From: Terriglobia bacterium | Lineage (GTDB): Bacteria > Acidobacteriota > Terriglobia > UBA7540 | Reading direction: 5' to 3' | DNA: 64,000 bases | Assembly (NCBI GenBank): GCA_035712365.1 | Contig: DASTAW010000033.1 | Location: 124,001 to 188,000 of the forward strand | In this document: positions 3,481 through 7,748 of the stretch, one piece after another | Numbering within the stretch: position 1 is the stretch's first letter | How the letters are laid out: every line of letters starts with the position of its first letter | Notes under the pieces: generated by a model | The model's database searches: none | Told to the model about the DNA's origin: nothing | Seen by the model: the letters and a program-made list of their open reading frames with translations, nothing else | Translations under genes and position numbers: made by a program

Positions 3481-3911
3481 CAGTCTCTCCGGAATTCGAA
3501 TCGCGCGGACCTTATGCTGGCGGCCTGCGGGTCTCTCGTCTATGGCACATTAAGAGCTTTTGATTATCTCATGAAAAACACAGGCAGGTTTCGTCCCTCC
3601 CGGCTTCTGTACAGTTCCGCTATGAACGTACCTGTGGTCATCCGCAGCCCAGGCAGGGGTGGCAGCCTCTGATAGAGAGGTCCCGACCGTGTGCCCTCTG
3701 ACAAGGGACGCGACCCCGTTTGACGAAAGAGTTGACTGATTGCCGCCTTCACCTCTGGGCGGCGCTTGCCTGGTTGGACACGATCTGATTGCGTCCCGAT
3801 AGCCTATTTCGAGAACGGACCGGCGGGAGAACCTCGGATGTTTGCAGGAGCGCCCAATTTTTGGTGTAACCTTTCGCTTGTTCCCGCGTAATCAGCGTGA
3901 CAATTAGAGCG
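3481..3911. other. Intergenic region between divergent tdh and sigma-factor genes
   Basis: No convincing gene is visible. A 62-codon minus-strand reading frame (3564-3752) has no recognisable domain and no good ribosome site. The region should hold the tdh promoter (minus) and the sigma-factor promoter (plus). A GATAAT-like hexamer on the minus strand near 3565-3570 is a weak -10 candidate for tdh. Confidence 0.4.
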
Positions 3912-4418
3912 ATGGATTTTCAAAGCCTCTACGAGAAGCATGCTCCGGCAGTGCGGCGGTTCGCCCTGTTCTTATGCGGCAATCCGGAGATGGCGGACGA
4001 CATCACTTCGGAGACCTTTTTGCGTGCATTGCAGGCTCACGGAGAAATTCGCCAGCCGACGGTGAGAAGCTACCTCTTCGCCATTGCGCAGAATGCGTAT
4101 CGTGACCTGCGGAGGCGGTCGCACCGAGAGACAGAGCTTGACGAGAAAAGACCCGACACAGCAATCACCGCTCAAGCACATTTTGAACAGAAAGAGGAAT
4201 TGAGCGCGGTGCTTGCGGCGTTGCAGGAATTGCCGGAGACAGATCGCGCCATTCTGCTGATGCGTGTTGTGGATGAAATGCCCTACGAGGAAATTGCCTC
4301 CGCCCTGGATGTGTCCGTAACTACCGCCAAGGTGAAAGTGCACCGCGCGCGGGCGAAGCTAATGGCCATTCGAGAGCCTGCGAGCGAGAAGTTGACTGGT
4401 TCGGGAGAAAAGCTATGA
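3912..4418 (+). CDS. ECF-type RNA polymerase sigma factor
   Basis: An alternative sigma-70 factor of the extracytoplasmic-function type, about 168 residues. Region 2 is recognisable from FQSLYEKHAPAVRRFALFLCGN through ADDITSETFLRAL and SYLFAIAQNAYRDLRRR. Region 4 follows at the C-terminus: LQELPETDRAILLMRVVDEMPYEE then IASALDVSVTTAKVKVHRAR. I chose ATG at 3912 because the family starts close to this motif; a GTG at 3897 would add five residues. The next gene starts inside its stop codon (ATGA), which implies translational coupling to a membrane partner acting as anti-sigma factor. Confidence 0.9.
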   Translation: MDFQSLYEKHAPAVRRFALFLCGNPEMADDITSETFLRALQAHGEIRQPTVRSYLFAIAQNAYRDLRRRSHRETELDEKRPDTAITAQAHFEQKEELSAVLAALQELPETDRAILLMRVVDEMPYEEIASALDVSVTTAKVKVHRARAKLMAIREPASEKLTGSGEKL

Positions 4419-5005
4419 GCATTACGCGCAACGTGGTGATTGATTTGTTGCCAGTATATTTTTCCGGGGAGGCAAGCGACGACACACGTAAGCTGGTCGA
4501 GGATTACTTTCGGGAGGACCCTGATTTCGAGCGCGTCGCCCGGAGTGCAGCGACACCACTTGAAACGTTGAAGGCGGCTTCGTCGGTTGCGCCGGAAGCG
4601 GAAAGGGAAAAGCGCGACCTGGAGCGCATTGGATGGGAATTGAGGTCACGAAGAGTATGGCTTGTCATGGCGCTGTTTTACACGCTCCTGCCTCTCGTGC
4701 CGTTGGTCGGCGGAGAACTCGCTGGGTGGATTGGGGGACCCCACACCTGGGGAGGGAGAGTTGCAGATTTGGTCTGCGCGGCATTTTTTTGGCTCGTATA
4801 TATCACACGGATGTCACGGCGCAAAGTGCTGCTGGCGGGGGCAATCTTCGTGAGCTCAGTAGCGCTGGCGCCCGTTTTGAATAAGCTGAATATCATCACA
4901 AGTCCAGCGGTGCAAGGCACCGACTTGGAGATAATCGTTATCTGCGTGGGTGCGGCGTTTTTCTGGTTTTTGTATTTTCGCGGGCGAGCGCCGGTGCGGC
5001 GGTGA
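4415..5005 (+). CDS. Membrane protein, probable anti-sigma factor partner
   Basis: A 196-residue protein with a soluble N-terminal portion (about 1-75) followed by four hydrophobic helices: near 80-100 (VWLVMALFYTLLPLV), 112-130, 136-155 and 166-185. The start overlaps the sigma gene stop by four bases, the usual arrangement for a sigma/anti-sigma pair. The N-terminus (MSITRNVVIDLLPVYFSGEAS) matches the opening of many putative zinc-finger anti-sigma proteins, yet no His-x3-Cys-x2-Cys motif is present. The role is inferred from position and topology. Confidence 0.7.
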   Translation: MSITRNVVIDLLPVYFSGEASDDTRKLVEDYFREDPDFERVARSAATPLETLKAASSVAPEAEREKRDLERIGWELRSRRVWLVMALFYTLLPLVPLVGGELAGWIGGPHTWGGRVADLVCAAFFWLVYITRMSRRKVLLAGAIFVSSVALAPVLNKLNIITSPAVQGTDLEIIVICVGAAFFWFLYFRGRAPVRR

Positions 5006-5135
5006 CGTGTCACGCCTGGGGCAGACGCGCTCGGCAGGAACGATCGTCAGGCAATCGCAAGTCGCGCCCGGGTCAATTCGCCTTTTTCCGCGAGGCCCCC
5101 ATTCTCTTCACCATCGCCAGAACCCTAACATTTGC

Positions 5136-5164
5136 TTGCCCAGCCTGAAGATTTAAGATATAGT
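5136..5164 (+). promoter_or_regulatory. Promoter of the aromatic leader peptide and DAHP synthase
   Basis: TTGCCC (5136-5141; four of six -35 bases), a 17-base spacer, then TATAGT (5159-5164; five of six -10 bases). The predicted start at about 5170-5171 lies only three or four bases before the leader-peptide ATG at 5174, so the leader would be translated from a nearly leaderless transcript. This fits the absence of a Shine-Dalgarno sequence. Confidence 0.6.
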
Positions 5165-5173
5165 CGATGCACG

Positions 5174-5248
5174 ATGGTCAGTTTGAATTTTACCAACGCG
5201 TTTAGCTTTAGCTACTGGTATTGGGGCTTTTTTGCCTCGATCCGCTAG
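5174..5248 (+). CDS. Aromatic-rich leader peptide (24 residues) of the aroF attenuator
   Basis: ATG at 5174 to TAG at 5246-5248 encodes a 24-residue peptide with five Phe, two Tyr and two Trp. Eight of these nine fall in the 11-residue run FSFSYWYWGFF. It does not resemble a functional protein; it resembles the sensor peptides of the trp and phe operons, where ribosome stalling at scarce charged tRNA sets the fold of the downstream RNA. The terminator and antiterminator lie directly after it and the first real gene is DAHP synthase, the entry enzyme for Phe, Tyr and Trp. An overlapping 12-codon frame from ATG at 5167 is the alternative and lacks the aromatic run. Confidence 0.85.
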   Translation: MVSLNFTNAFSFSYWYWGFFASIR

Positions 5249-5301
5249 AGTGGCGTTGGCCTGACCAGGAAAAACGAGTTTTAAGAAAAGCCAGCCCACT
5301 C
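5248..5301 (+). promoter_or_regulatory. Antiterminator pairing of the aroF attenuator
   Basis: GAGTGG (5248-5253) pairs with CCACTC (5296-5301), and GTTGGC (5255-5260) pairs with GCCAGC (5290-5295, one G-U pair). This gives 12 base pairs with a single bulged C at 5254. The 3' strand covers the whole 5' arm of the terminator, so the two folds exclude each other. The 5' strand starts on the last base of the leader stop codon. A ribosome that finishes the peptide would mask it; one stalled on the aromatic codons (5201-5233) would leave it free. Confidence 0.8.
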
Positions 5302-5320
5302 AAGCCGAGTGGGCTTTTTT
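5293..5320 (+). terminator. Intrinsic terminator of the aroF attenuator
   Basis: A perfect 9-bp stem (AGCCCACTC 5293-5301, GAGTGGGCT 5307-5315) with loop AAGCC is followed by a run of six T. It ends 21 bases before the aroF start codon. It sits between a strong promoter and the gene it precedes, so it is best read as a regulated terminator and not as the end of the upstream gene. Confidence 0.9.
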
Positions 5321-5341
5321 GTTGGCGAGGGGAGATAAACC

Positions 5342-6382
5342 ATGATCATTTCCATGCGGCCGCATGCCACCAGGGAAGAAATTGACTACGTTTGCGAGCG
5401 GATACGCGAATTCGGATACAAGGTGCATTCCATCGAGGGCGAAGAAAGGGTGGTGATTGGCGTGATTGGTGTAGGCGATGTGACGGCTTGTCTGGAATCC
5501 CTGGAAGCGACTCCCGGAGTGGAGCACGCGGTGCGAATCTCGGCGCCCTACAAATTTGTGAGCAAAGAATTCAAGCAGGAGCGCTCGCGGATTCGCGTGA
5601 ACGGCTCGGAGATCGGCGGCGACGAGTTTGTGGTGATGGCCGGGCCCTGCTCGGTGGAAAACGAGGACCAGATTCTCGAAACCGCGGAAGCCGTGGCCGC
5701 CGCCGGCGCCAAAGTACTGCGCGGCGGCGCCTTCAAGCCGCGGACCTCGCCTTATGATTTTCAGGGCCTGGCGCTCGAAGGGCTTAAGCTGCTGGCCAAA
5801 GCGCGCCAGGCCACCGGGCTTGCCATTGTGACGGAAGTGATGAGCGAAGGCGACGTGGACACGGTGGCGGAGTACGCCGATGTTATGCAGGTAGGCGCGC
5901 GCAACATGCAGAATTTCTCGCTGCTGAAGGCGCTGGGCAAATGCCCGCGGCCGGTGCTGCTGAAGCGCGGCATGAGCTCGACTATCAAGGAGCTGCTGAT
6001 GTCCGCCGAATACATCACGGCGCACGGCAATCCCAACATCATTCTCTGCGAACGTGGCATCCGCACGTTCGAGACGGCTACGCGAAATACCTGCGACATC
6101 GCCGCCGTCCCTGTGCTCAGCGAGCTCACACACTTGCCGGTGATTCTTGACCCCAGCCACGCGACGGGCAAGCGGAGCGTGGTGCCTGCTCTCTGCCGCG
6201 CTGCCGTGGCCATTGGGGCAGACGGCCTGATCGTTGAGGTCCACCCGCAGCCGGAAAAGGCCATGAGCGACGGCGCGCAATCGCTCAGGACCGAACAGTT
6301 CGCAACCATGATGGCGGACCTGGAGCCTTACATCCGGCTCTGGAAGGAGAGCCGCGTTTCAGCCGCTGCAGCCTCGGTCTAG
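5342..6382 (+). CDS. aroF: 3-deoxy-7-phosphoheptulonate synthase (DAHP synthase)
   Basis: First enzyme of the shikimate pathway, condensing phosphoenolpyruvate and erythrose 4-phosphate. The protein (346 residues) has the two-part layout of the type I beta subgroup. A ferredoxin-like N-terminal regulatory domain covers about residues 1-70 ([20 protein letters not shown]). The KDO8P/DAHP synthase barrel follows, with [60 protein letters not shown] and [10 protein letters not shown]. The N-terminal domain in such enzymes can mediate feedback inhibition by aromatic amino acids. A GGGGAG ribosome site precedes the start. With the attenuator upstream, control is probably exerted both on transcription and on the enzyme. 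Confidence 0.97.
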
Positions 6383-6548: not shown

Positions 6549-7748
6549 CTGAACCATTCTGCGTCGCTACTGGGCATTCTGGCAATCCTCGCCACCTGTT
6601 ACGCGCTTTCGCGGCGCCGCGATGCCATTAGCTGGCGGATTGTGGGTTGGGGCCTGGGTCTGCAATTCCTGATCGCCCTGTTTGTGCTTCGCACGGGGCC
6701 GGGCTACTGGCTCCTGGACGAAGCCTCACACGGCGTGGAGTGGTTCCTGCAGTTTTCGTTTGAAGGCTCCCGATTCGTCTTCGGCCCGCTGGGTGACCCG
6801 AAAGGCAATCTGGGCATGGTCTTCGCCTTCCAGGCGCTGCCCTTGATCATCTACGTGGCGGCAGCAATTTCAATTCTCTACTACATCGGCATCCTGCCGG
6901 CGCTGGTGTCCCTGGCGGCGAGGGCGGTGTTTAGGCTGATGGGAACCAGCGGCGCCGAATCCCTTGAAGTGATCGCCAGCATCGTTATAGGACAGGCAGA
7001 AGCCCCGCTCGTCATCCGTCCTCACCTGGAGACTTTGACCCAATCAGAACTCATGACCGTGATGACCGCCGGCATGGCCCACATCGCAGGATCGGTGCTG
7101 GGCGCCTACATCCTGTTCGGCGCGCAGGCGCGGGACCTGCTGACCGCCGTCGTCATGACGGCACCGGGAACGATGCTGGTGTCGAAGATGCTGATTCCGG
7201 AAACGGGCCAGCCGGAAACTGCCGGCGAGGTGAAGCTGGCGCTTGAGAAAGTGGAGGTCAATCTTCTGGACGCCATCACGCGCGGTGTTCTTGACGGTCT
7301 CTTCATTGCACTCAACGTGGGAGCCATGCTGATCGCCTTTGTCGCCCTCATCGCCCTGGCGAACGGCATTCTGGGATTCGCCCATACCACCTTGCCCACC
7401 GTGTTCGGTTATCTTCTGGCGCCGGTGGCCTGGCTTCTCGGCGTGCCGTGGCACGACGCCATGGCCGTGGGAAATCTGCTGGCTACAAAGGTCGTTCTGA
7501 ATGAATTTGTGGCGTTTTCCCTGCTGGGCCCGCTGAAAGGGCACATCGCTGCGCGTTCATTCACCATTGCCACCTTCGCGCTTTGTGGATTTGCGAATTT
7601 CGGCTCCATCGGGGTGCAGATTGGCGCGATCGGCGCGGTGGTGCCTTCGCGCAGGCACGACATGGCAAGGCTGGGGCTGTGGGCGCTGCTGGGCGGCACC
7701 CTGGCAAATTACCTTTCTGCAGCTATTGTCGGCCTGTTCATCAACTGA
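6549..7748 (+). CDS. Concentrative nucleoside transporter (CNT/NupC family)
   Basis: A polytopic inner-membrane protein of the CNT family, which imports nucleosides with a cation gradient. Family motifs are clear: IGQAEAPLVIRPHL in the first core hairpin, NEFVAFSLL, and ALCGFANFGSIGVQIGAIG near the C-terminus. The open frame from GTG at 6642 lacks the first transmembrane helix that family members have. Extending the same frame upstream restores it (SASLLGILAILATCYALSRRR) and leads to CTG at 6549, five bases after GGAGG (6539-6543). I therefore propose a CTG start, giving 399 residues. No ATG, GTG or TTG occurs in this frame between the nearby upstream sequence and 6642. A partly hydrophilic insert lies near residues 215-235. 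Confidence 0.88.
   Translation: MNHSASLLGILAILATCYALSRRRDAISWRIVGWGLGLQFLIALFVLRTGPGYWLLDEASHGVEWFLQFSFEGSRFVFGPLGDPKGNLGMVFAFQALPLIIYVAAAISILYYIGILPALVSLAARAVFRLMGTSGAESLEVIASIVIGQAEAPLVIRPHLETLTQSELMTVMTAGMAHIAGSVLGAYILFGAQARDLLTAVVMTAPGTMLVSKMLIPETGQPETAGEVKLALEKVEVNLLDAITRGVLDGLFIALNVGAMLIAFVALIALANGILGFAHTTLPTVFGYLLAPVAWLLGVPWHDAMAVGNLLATKVVLNEFVAFSLLGPLKGHIAARSFTIATFALCGFANFGSIGVQIGAIGAVVPSRRHDMARLGLWALLGGTLANYLSAAIVGLFIN

Follow-up and report, generated by a model that had tools for sequence, protein, structure and literature searches.

A probable ribosome-mediated transcription attenuator with phenylalanine, tyrosine and tryptophan codons precedes aroF in Acidobacteriota

In the window, by which we mean the whole stretch of 64,000 nucleotides analysed here, the plus-strand gene aroF (5342-6382) encodes a type I-beta DAHP synthase with a ferredoxin-like domain (PF00793 and PF18152; NF006421), the committed enzyme for all three aromatic amino acids. 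The nearest named records agree with an assignment of the DNA to Acidobacteriota. A probable Shine-Dalgarno sequence of aroF, GAGGGGAG, was read from the sequence at 5327-5334 on the same strand. A NupC-like nucleoside transporter gene lies downstream at 6642-7748, and the minus strand between 143 and 3480 carries selD as well as the genes for glycine C-acetyltransferase and threonine 3-dehydrogenase.

A sigma70-type promoter is located on the plus strand at 5136-5164, as the initial annotation had proposed. It consists of a -35 element TTGCCC (5136-5141), a 17-nt spacer and a -10 element TATAGT (5159-5164), with 9 of 12 matches. Since the -10 element ends only 9 nt before the leader ATG at 5174, the leader mRNA is probably leaderless; from the position of the -10 element, transcription is predicted to start at 5170-5173 (plus strand), i.e. 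1-4 nt 5' of the AUG. An out-of-frame ATG at 5167 was dismissed as leader start because it lies upstream of this predicted transcription start. The promoter recurs in related leaders. In the first set of leaders (16 aligned), TTGC is found at the -35 place in all 15 that have enough upstream sequence, and a TA...T hexamer 8-9 nt 5' of the start codon was read from the alignment in 14 of 15, the odd one out being L008 with CACACT. Over the 48 scored leaders of the class (see below), a -10 element was located 7-11 nt ahead of the start in 31. The 17 leaders without it comprise nine of family f7, four of f5, two of f6, and L082 and L116, where its absence reflects a wrongly picked start rather than a genuine spacing; for L116, an in-frame ATG further upstream suits the -10 element better. 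A leaderless start would free the switch from Shine-Dalgarno initiation.

The leader peptide MVSLNFTNAFSFSYWYWGFFASIR is encoded on the plus strand at 5174-5248 (ATG at 5174, stop codon TAG at 5246-5248). The claimed 24 codons with nine aromatic residues were thus found as described, eight of these residues being within the sequence FSFSYWYWGFF (codons 10-20, 5201-5233, plus strand), which we regard as the control codons. None of 3000 dinucleotide shuffles of 5042-5341 contained an ORF (length 8-50 codons) in which 8 or more of 12 codons are aromatic; the best ORF scored 7 in 4 of these shuffles and at least 6 in 54, and a chance ORF was rejected on these grounds as an explanation of the leader. 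It is also the only ORF of this length on either strand of the window that scores 8, two others scoring 6. The core of the control codons, Tyr14-x-[Tyr/Phe]16-Trp17, is conserved in the 16 aligned leaders: codon 14 encodes Tyr in all of them, codon 16 is aromatic in all of them and spelled by four different codons (TAT, TAC, TTT and TTC), and Trp17 is present in 15, the exception being genome G049, where this codon is TAG. In G049 (L013:14-52) the premature stop yields the peptide MVTAYASSFSYRY, and terminator and antiterminator are retained.

The predicted RNA structures downstream of and within the leader ORF comprise all four strands of the classical attenuator design. An intrinsic terminator is encoded at 5293-5320 on the plus strand, with a stem at 5293-5315 and a U-run at 5315-5320. 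Its 5' arm overlaps strand 3, the 3' strand of the antiterminator (GCCAGCCCACUC, 5290-5301, plus strand), which pairs with strand 2 (GAGUGG-c-GUUGGC, 5248-5260, plus strand) in 12 base pairs with one bulged C, an assignment supported by duplex and alignment tests. The calculated energy of this duplex is -21.9 kcal/mol; when the 5' strand was shuffled 200 times, one shuffle did equally well. Both structures had been put forward in the initial annotation and are borne out here, the 5' strand of the antiterminator beginning at the last base of the stop codon (5248). Absent from that annotation was a protector helix between strands 1 and 2, which appears in the minimum free energy fold and completes the set. 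Its strand 1 spans 5193-5227 (plus strand) and is made up of CCAACGC at 5193-5199, pairing with 5253-5259, and the 5' arm of an inner hairpin at 5205-5227. Its 3' side, 5234-5267 (plus strand), overlaps the end of the leader ORF, the stop codon and strand 2, so that control codons and ORF end together form the inner hairpin. The RNA 5174-5330 folds better than 200 of 200 shuffles (z -3.9); the fold of 5240-5325 by itself is unremarkable against shuffles (z -1.4).

The consequences of different ribosome positions were calculated with a folding model in which the RNA under or behind the ribosome was removed, assuming that the ribosome extends 10 nt downstream of the A-site codon. When strand 3 has been transcribed but strand 4 is not yet included, a stall at any of the aromatic codons between 6 and 20 inclusive gives the antiterminator a probability of at least 0.97. 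With strand 4 included, it is predicted at 0.99, 0.99, 0.87, 0.77 and 0.97 for stalls at codons 15, 16, 17, 19 and 20, and at 0.90 for a stall at codon 10. The corresponding values for codons 6, 12 and 14 are 0.05, 0.52 and 0.19, the terminator being favoured at codons 6 (0.95) and 14 (0.81) and nearly balanced at codon 12 (0.52 versus 0.48). Equilibrium folding is therefore not clean for every aromatic codon in this model, which counts against the attenuator. With the ribosome on the stop codon, the terminator forms with a probability of 0.997, and the same value is obtained without a ribosome. As modelled, the folding results match the requirements of ribosome-mediated attenuation, with the Trp15-Tyr16-Trp17 core as the best predicted stall site.

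The distribution of the leader was examined at several levels of relatedness. The leader DNA used as a query matches 15 of 151 genomes of the class. Similarity to the two congeners sets in at window position 5123 for G042 and 5152 for G092 and stops where aroF does (6383 and 6369, respectively), which means that the genes further upstream are not common to them. In family f1, the covariance model matches 24 of 39 genomes, including all 14 that have a close aroF (at least 77% identity). Over the phylum, the covariance model R1 matched 20 of 396 genomes at an E value of 0.01, and of seven outside matches inspected only that of G013 precedes aroF. A search of the class with aroF itself gave some match in 113 of 121 genomes and 62 matches of at least 412 bits (56-100% identity). 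Of these, 61 upstream regions were scanned; that of G028 (81% identity) was omitted, its leader being already represented (L015, L068). A fixed rule demanded that, within 300 nt upstream, an ORF with 5 or more aromatic codons in 12 be accompanied by a terminator. It was passed by 43 of the 61 close relatives and by 0 of 1830 shuffles, a comparison dominated by the terminator part of the rule since shuffling destroys terminators. The aromatic criterion alone holds for 45 of 61 close relatives as compared to 5.2% of shuffles. Extension to 420 nt left the number at 43 of 61, a looser rule (4 in 12 plus terminator) scored 48 of 61, and four further leaders (L083, L086, L113 and L130) were seen by eye. 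A recognisable leader is absent in nine of the 61 (L078, L104, L105, L107, L111, L117, L118, L120 and L122). In L104 and L107 (G093 and G022), the region before aroF has a -10-like sequence closely followed by a CCCACTC-type hairpin, and no leader ORF lies between the two, a layout that looks as if the leader had been deleted. Genome G108 contains two contigs (L008 and L019), each with a family leader before the start of a DAHP synthase gene.

Among more distant DAHP synthases (53-57% identity), none of nine passes the fixed rule at 300 nt and one does at 420 nt. This is L137 of G084 (57% identity), with the leader MYSSLTHGRFFYYFSFWRRCQRAPA and a helix sequence of its own; the leader is thus not strictly tied to one ortholog group. 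Leader and terminator lie 354-249 nt before this DAHP synthase gene, leaving a gap of about 200 nt between terminator and gene. The 48 scored leaders, which were selected for aromatic count and terminator, contain Phe codons in 48, Tyr codons in 47, Trp codons in 46 and all three in 45 cases. For L082 (G074) the scored ORF is false and the true leader, MSRAYANLLNDPF, has only Tyr and Phe, which reduces the latter number to 44. Exceptional members of the family are this leader of G074, the above-mentioned MVTAYASSFSYRY of G049 and a thin one in G104.

Pairing was assessed in alignments of 34 distinct sequences for antiterminator and terminator, one partial reverse-strand match being ignored where gapped; the covariance model behind the antiterminator test did not include the antiterminator pairs. 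The antiterminator is 92.8% paired versus 30-47% in versions in which the strands were slid against each other, with a covariation score of 0.148 versus at most 0.055. The number of its pairs changed on both sides, 3 versus 1-4 in slid versions, gives no separation. The terminator is 98.0% paired versus 23-60%, with 4 versus 0-1 pairs changed on both sides. Protector plus terminator, evaluated over 16 sequences, are 91.8% paired versus 36-49% and have a covariation score of 0.244 versus at most 0.126; again, changes on both sides (5 versus 1-6) do not separate them from the controls. The helices between strands 1 and 2 are 84-91% paired across these 16 sequences. Thus covariation score and pairing, unlike changes on both sides, set the antiterminator as well as protector plus terminator apart from the slid controls.

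More telling than counts of individual pairs, as judged from the sequences, are swaps of whole helices. The version GAGUGG/CCACUC of f1 and f4 is replaced by GGCGGGC/GCCCGCC in f7 and by CCAGGCG..GCUGAG/CUCAGC..CGCCUGG in f2; G084 has a 9-bp antiterminator of new sequence (UCAGCGGGC/GCCCGCUGA), and part of f5 uses yet another pair. An alignment of aroF leaders, proposed in the initial annotation as a check, therefore turned out in its favour: aromatic codons are conserved, and helix sequences change while pairing stays. In 68 scored leaders (class plus named records, not de-duplicated), the duplex of strands 2 and 3 has a mean z of -2.4. Forty-eight of them lie at or below 10 of 200 shuffles and 20 do not, including L077 of the same genus. 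For L131-L134, strand 2 is situated further upstream and was recovered only with a longer stretch. With f4-like strands, cognate pairing was hardly better than foreign pairing.

Other genes of this genome were inspected for such a leader as well. Its second DAHP synthase gene (C56, L002:1050-1290 in G000; 54% identity) has no leader; 5 nt separate its start from an upstream ORF resembling chorismate mutase by eye. Another PF00793 match, C8, which looks by eye like a KDO-8-phosphate synthase, has no aromatic ORF and is located behind a CTP-synthase-like end. No leader was found in the approximately 65 nt upstream of the only chorismate-binding gene of the genome (PF00425), which is trpE-like by eye.

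In summary, the region contains a leader ORF, a terminator before the gene, a mutually exclusive antiterminator near the stop codon and a protector helix that includes the control codons. From the sequence and the folding model, we consider it very probable that aroF is under classical ribosome-mediated attenuation of transcription, with 5136-5341 as an attenuator that reads codons for Phe, Tyr and Trp. The central claim of the initial annotation is thereby upheld, with conserved codons, retained pairing and the ribosome-position model in its support. RNA polymerase would start 1-4 nt before the AUG, and a ribosome would load on this leaderless AUG and follow the polymerase. With charged Phe-, Tyr- and Trp-tRNAs plentiful, the ribosome would reach the UAG at 5246 and cover strand 2 (5248-5260), so that strands 3 and 4 would form the terminator and transcription would end near 5320. 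When any one of the three is short, the ribosome would be expected to stall within codons 10-20, above all at Trp15-Tyr16-Trp17, and to break the protector. Strand 2 would then be free to pair with the emerging strand 3, the terminator would be blocked and aroF transcribed. Without translation, the 1:2 protector would form and transcription would terminate. The response in vivo, and that all three amino acids count in it, is what we infer from this arrangement. Since all three residues occur in most scored leaders, joint sensing of Phe, Tyr and Trp by one leader is plausible. In enterobacteria, protein repressors and feedback adjust three DAHP synthases individually, one to each aromatic amino acid. 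A single leader of the kind proposed here would let the lack of any one product release one enzyme, and no DNA-binding regulator would be needed.

Several other readings of the same region have to be weighed. The attenuator could be real and yet respond chiefly to either Trp or Tyr, with the remaining aromatic codons suiting the helices or being tolerated. In the minimum free energy fold, the 5' arm of the inner hairpin includes or adjoins codons 14-17, so that these codons are also constrained by base pairing, and the ribosome-position fold is best at codons 15 and 16. Moreover, the Phe-Tyr-Phe leader of C. glutamicum answers to Phe, not Tyr, according to the excerpted text of PMC11802643. 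Against this speaks that all 16 aligned leaders have an aromatic residue at codon 16, encoded by four different codons, arguing for selection on the kind of residue rather than on one sequence, and that the very different leaders of other families again hold Phe, Tyr and Trp. We therefore treat a response to mainly one amino acid as a possibility to be taken seriously, albeit a rather doubtful one. Far less probable in our view is a trans-acting leader peptide, or one whose own sequence brings the ribosome to arrest in response to a free aromatic metabolite, as with TnaC and tryptophan, rather than to the level of charged tRNA. TnaC-like arrest normally rests on fixed tunnel-binding residues. 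The peptide is indeed well conserved within the family of the window leader, but between families the peptides vary widely while aromatic richness is kept, and the conserved non-aromatic residues Ala7 and Arg24 sit in columns that are paired in the 1:2 helices. A leader peptide with functions in trans is described for S. meliloti (peTrpL; excerpts of PMC7298713).

We give hardly any credence to the remaining explanation, namely that the terminator merely ends the transcript of an upstream sigma-factor gene pair (3897-5005) and that the ORF is incidental; it was considered and rejected. An intrinsic terminator downstream of this pair and on the same strand would fit such a role, but about 290 nt and a promoter separate it from the last stop codon of the pair, the congeners become similar only from 5123 and 5152 onwards, and leader and terminator accompany aroF in 43 of 61 close relatives. 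A T-box leader was likewise set aside, no T-box family being among the six Rfam matches up to E 10 in 5080-5400, and so was any other known Rfam leader, with no family at its gathering score in the window.

Beyond the class, the best 80 of at least 593 candidates in named genomes gave 79 loci with enough upstream sequence, to which a stricter rule (6 in 12 plus terminator) was applied. It was passed by 18 of 79 loci versus 0 of 2370 shuffles. Bryobacter-like records are among the named ones that have such a leader. Eleven of the 18 are among the 61 of 79 loci not labelled as Acidobacteria or their orders and include Geomonas, Desulfuromusa, a Planctomycetaceae, a Calditrichota and a Clostridiales record. 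Only four of these eleven reach 10 of 200 shuffles or fewer in the antiterminator test, and a wider class is therefore a lead. Very aromatic leaders with a terminator precede type I-beta DAHP synthase genes outside Acidobacteriota in L174, L177, L178, L187, L210, L219 and L237, examples of leaders being MINTGYFTFTNFYFWYGFYFRPSPRVEV in Geomonas propionica and MKRSWFRYFWFFYFTGLCPGAGGIS in a Planctomycetaceae record. Leaders from delta-proteobacterial and from syntrophic records (L172, L179, L183, L190 and L206) have a common VCPxxRR-like ending 3' of the aromatic run, which perhaps codes for strand 2. In a separate scan outside the class, 130 of 197 genomes had a match and 22 of 25 chosen loci were scanned; an aromatic ORF scoring at least 5 was found in four of the 22, all of family f38, one of them with a terminator that passes the rule. 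In three f38 loci (L253, L262 and L264), short aromatic leaders like MNNRFYSYYYYGSYQTDP stand before the DAHP synthase gene with a strong hairpin and no clear U-run. We put forward tentatively, as a view that falls a little short of an even chance, that a trivalent OR-type and mostly leaderless attenuator is the main control of shikimate entry in one Acidobacteriota class, and that, with comparable pan-aromatic leaders ahead of type I-beta DAHP synthase genes in Geomonas, syntrophic delta-proteobacteria, Planctomycetes, Calditrichota and Clostridiales, it would represent a widespread attenuator class hitherto undescribed.

E. coli trpL and pheL work by the logic proposed here, likewise using control codons, four strands and a terminator with a U-run. 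These leaders respond to one amino acid each and precede genes of terminal branches, whereas the window leader has codons for three aromatic amino acids and precedes aroF. The region 5080-5400 scores 19.9 bits (E 0.1; curated threshold 41) against the Rfam family Trp_leader (RF00513) and 21.3 bits (E 0.25; curated threshold 55) against Phe_leader (RF01859), and is thus a member of neither. Multivalent leaders are known for branched-chain operons, and an attenuator of aroR-aroF in C. glutamicum was reportedly described by Neshat et al. in 2014. In that system, according to the excerpts of the sources, a leader with Phe-Tyr-Phe lies before a DAHP synthase gene and stalling raises aroF transcription (PMC11802643, PMC4046766), with a response of the aroR leader to Phe but not to Tyr (PMC11802643). 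The window leader resembles aroR as an aromatic leader peptide ahead of a DAHP synthase gene; it is set apart, by description, in that it has Phe, Tyr and Trp, no Trp being reported for aroR in these excerpts, and in that it belongs to another phylum. By description rather than structure, it is also akin to uORFC-13-1 of Acholeplasma, an aromatic-codon uORF with a terminator before aroF. The excerpted text describes uORFC-13-1 as a uORF with at least one Phe codon, a ribosome binding site and a terminator directly before aroF, known from 24 representatives, all of them from Acholeplasma or environmental sequences (PMC8632094). The S. meliloti trpL leader RNA has its 5' end at the ATG of the leader ORF (excerpts of PMC7298713) and is possibly leaderless, as the window leader probably is, but belongs to trpE(G), tryptophan and another phylum. 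Among the literature matches listed, there was no three-aromatic, mostly leaderless leader conserved through an Acidobacteriota class. The initial annotation knew of no described case for this enzyme in that phylum, and among these matches none was found; the hint of novelty nevertheless needs trimming because DAHP synthase leaders have been described in Corynebacterium and Acholeplasma. The principle of the attenuator itself is textbook knowledge, and what is probably new, judging from the literature matches listed, is its combination of all three aromatic amino acids with a probably leaderless mRNA in Acidobacteriota.
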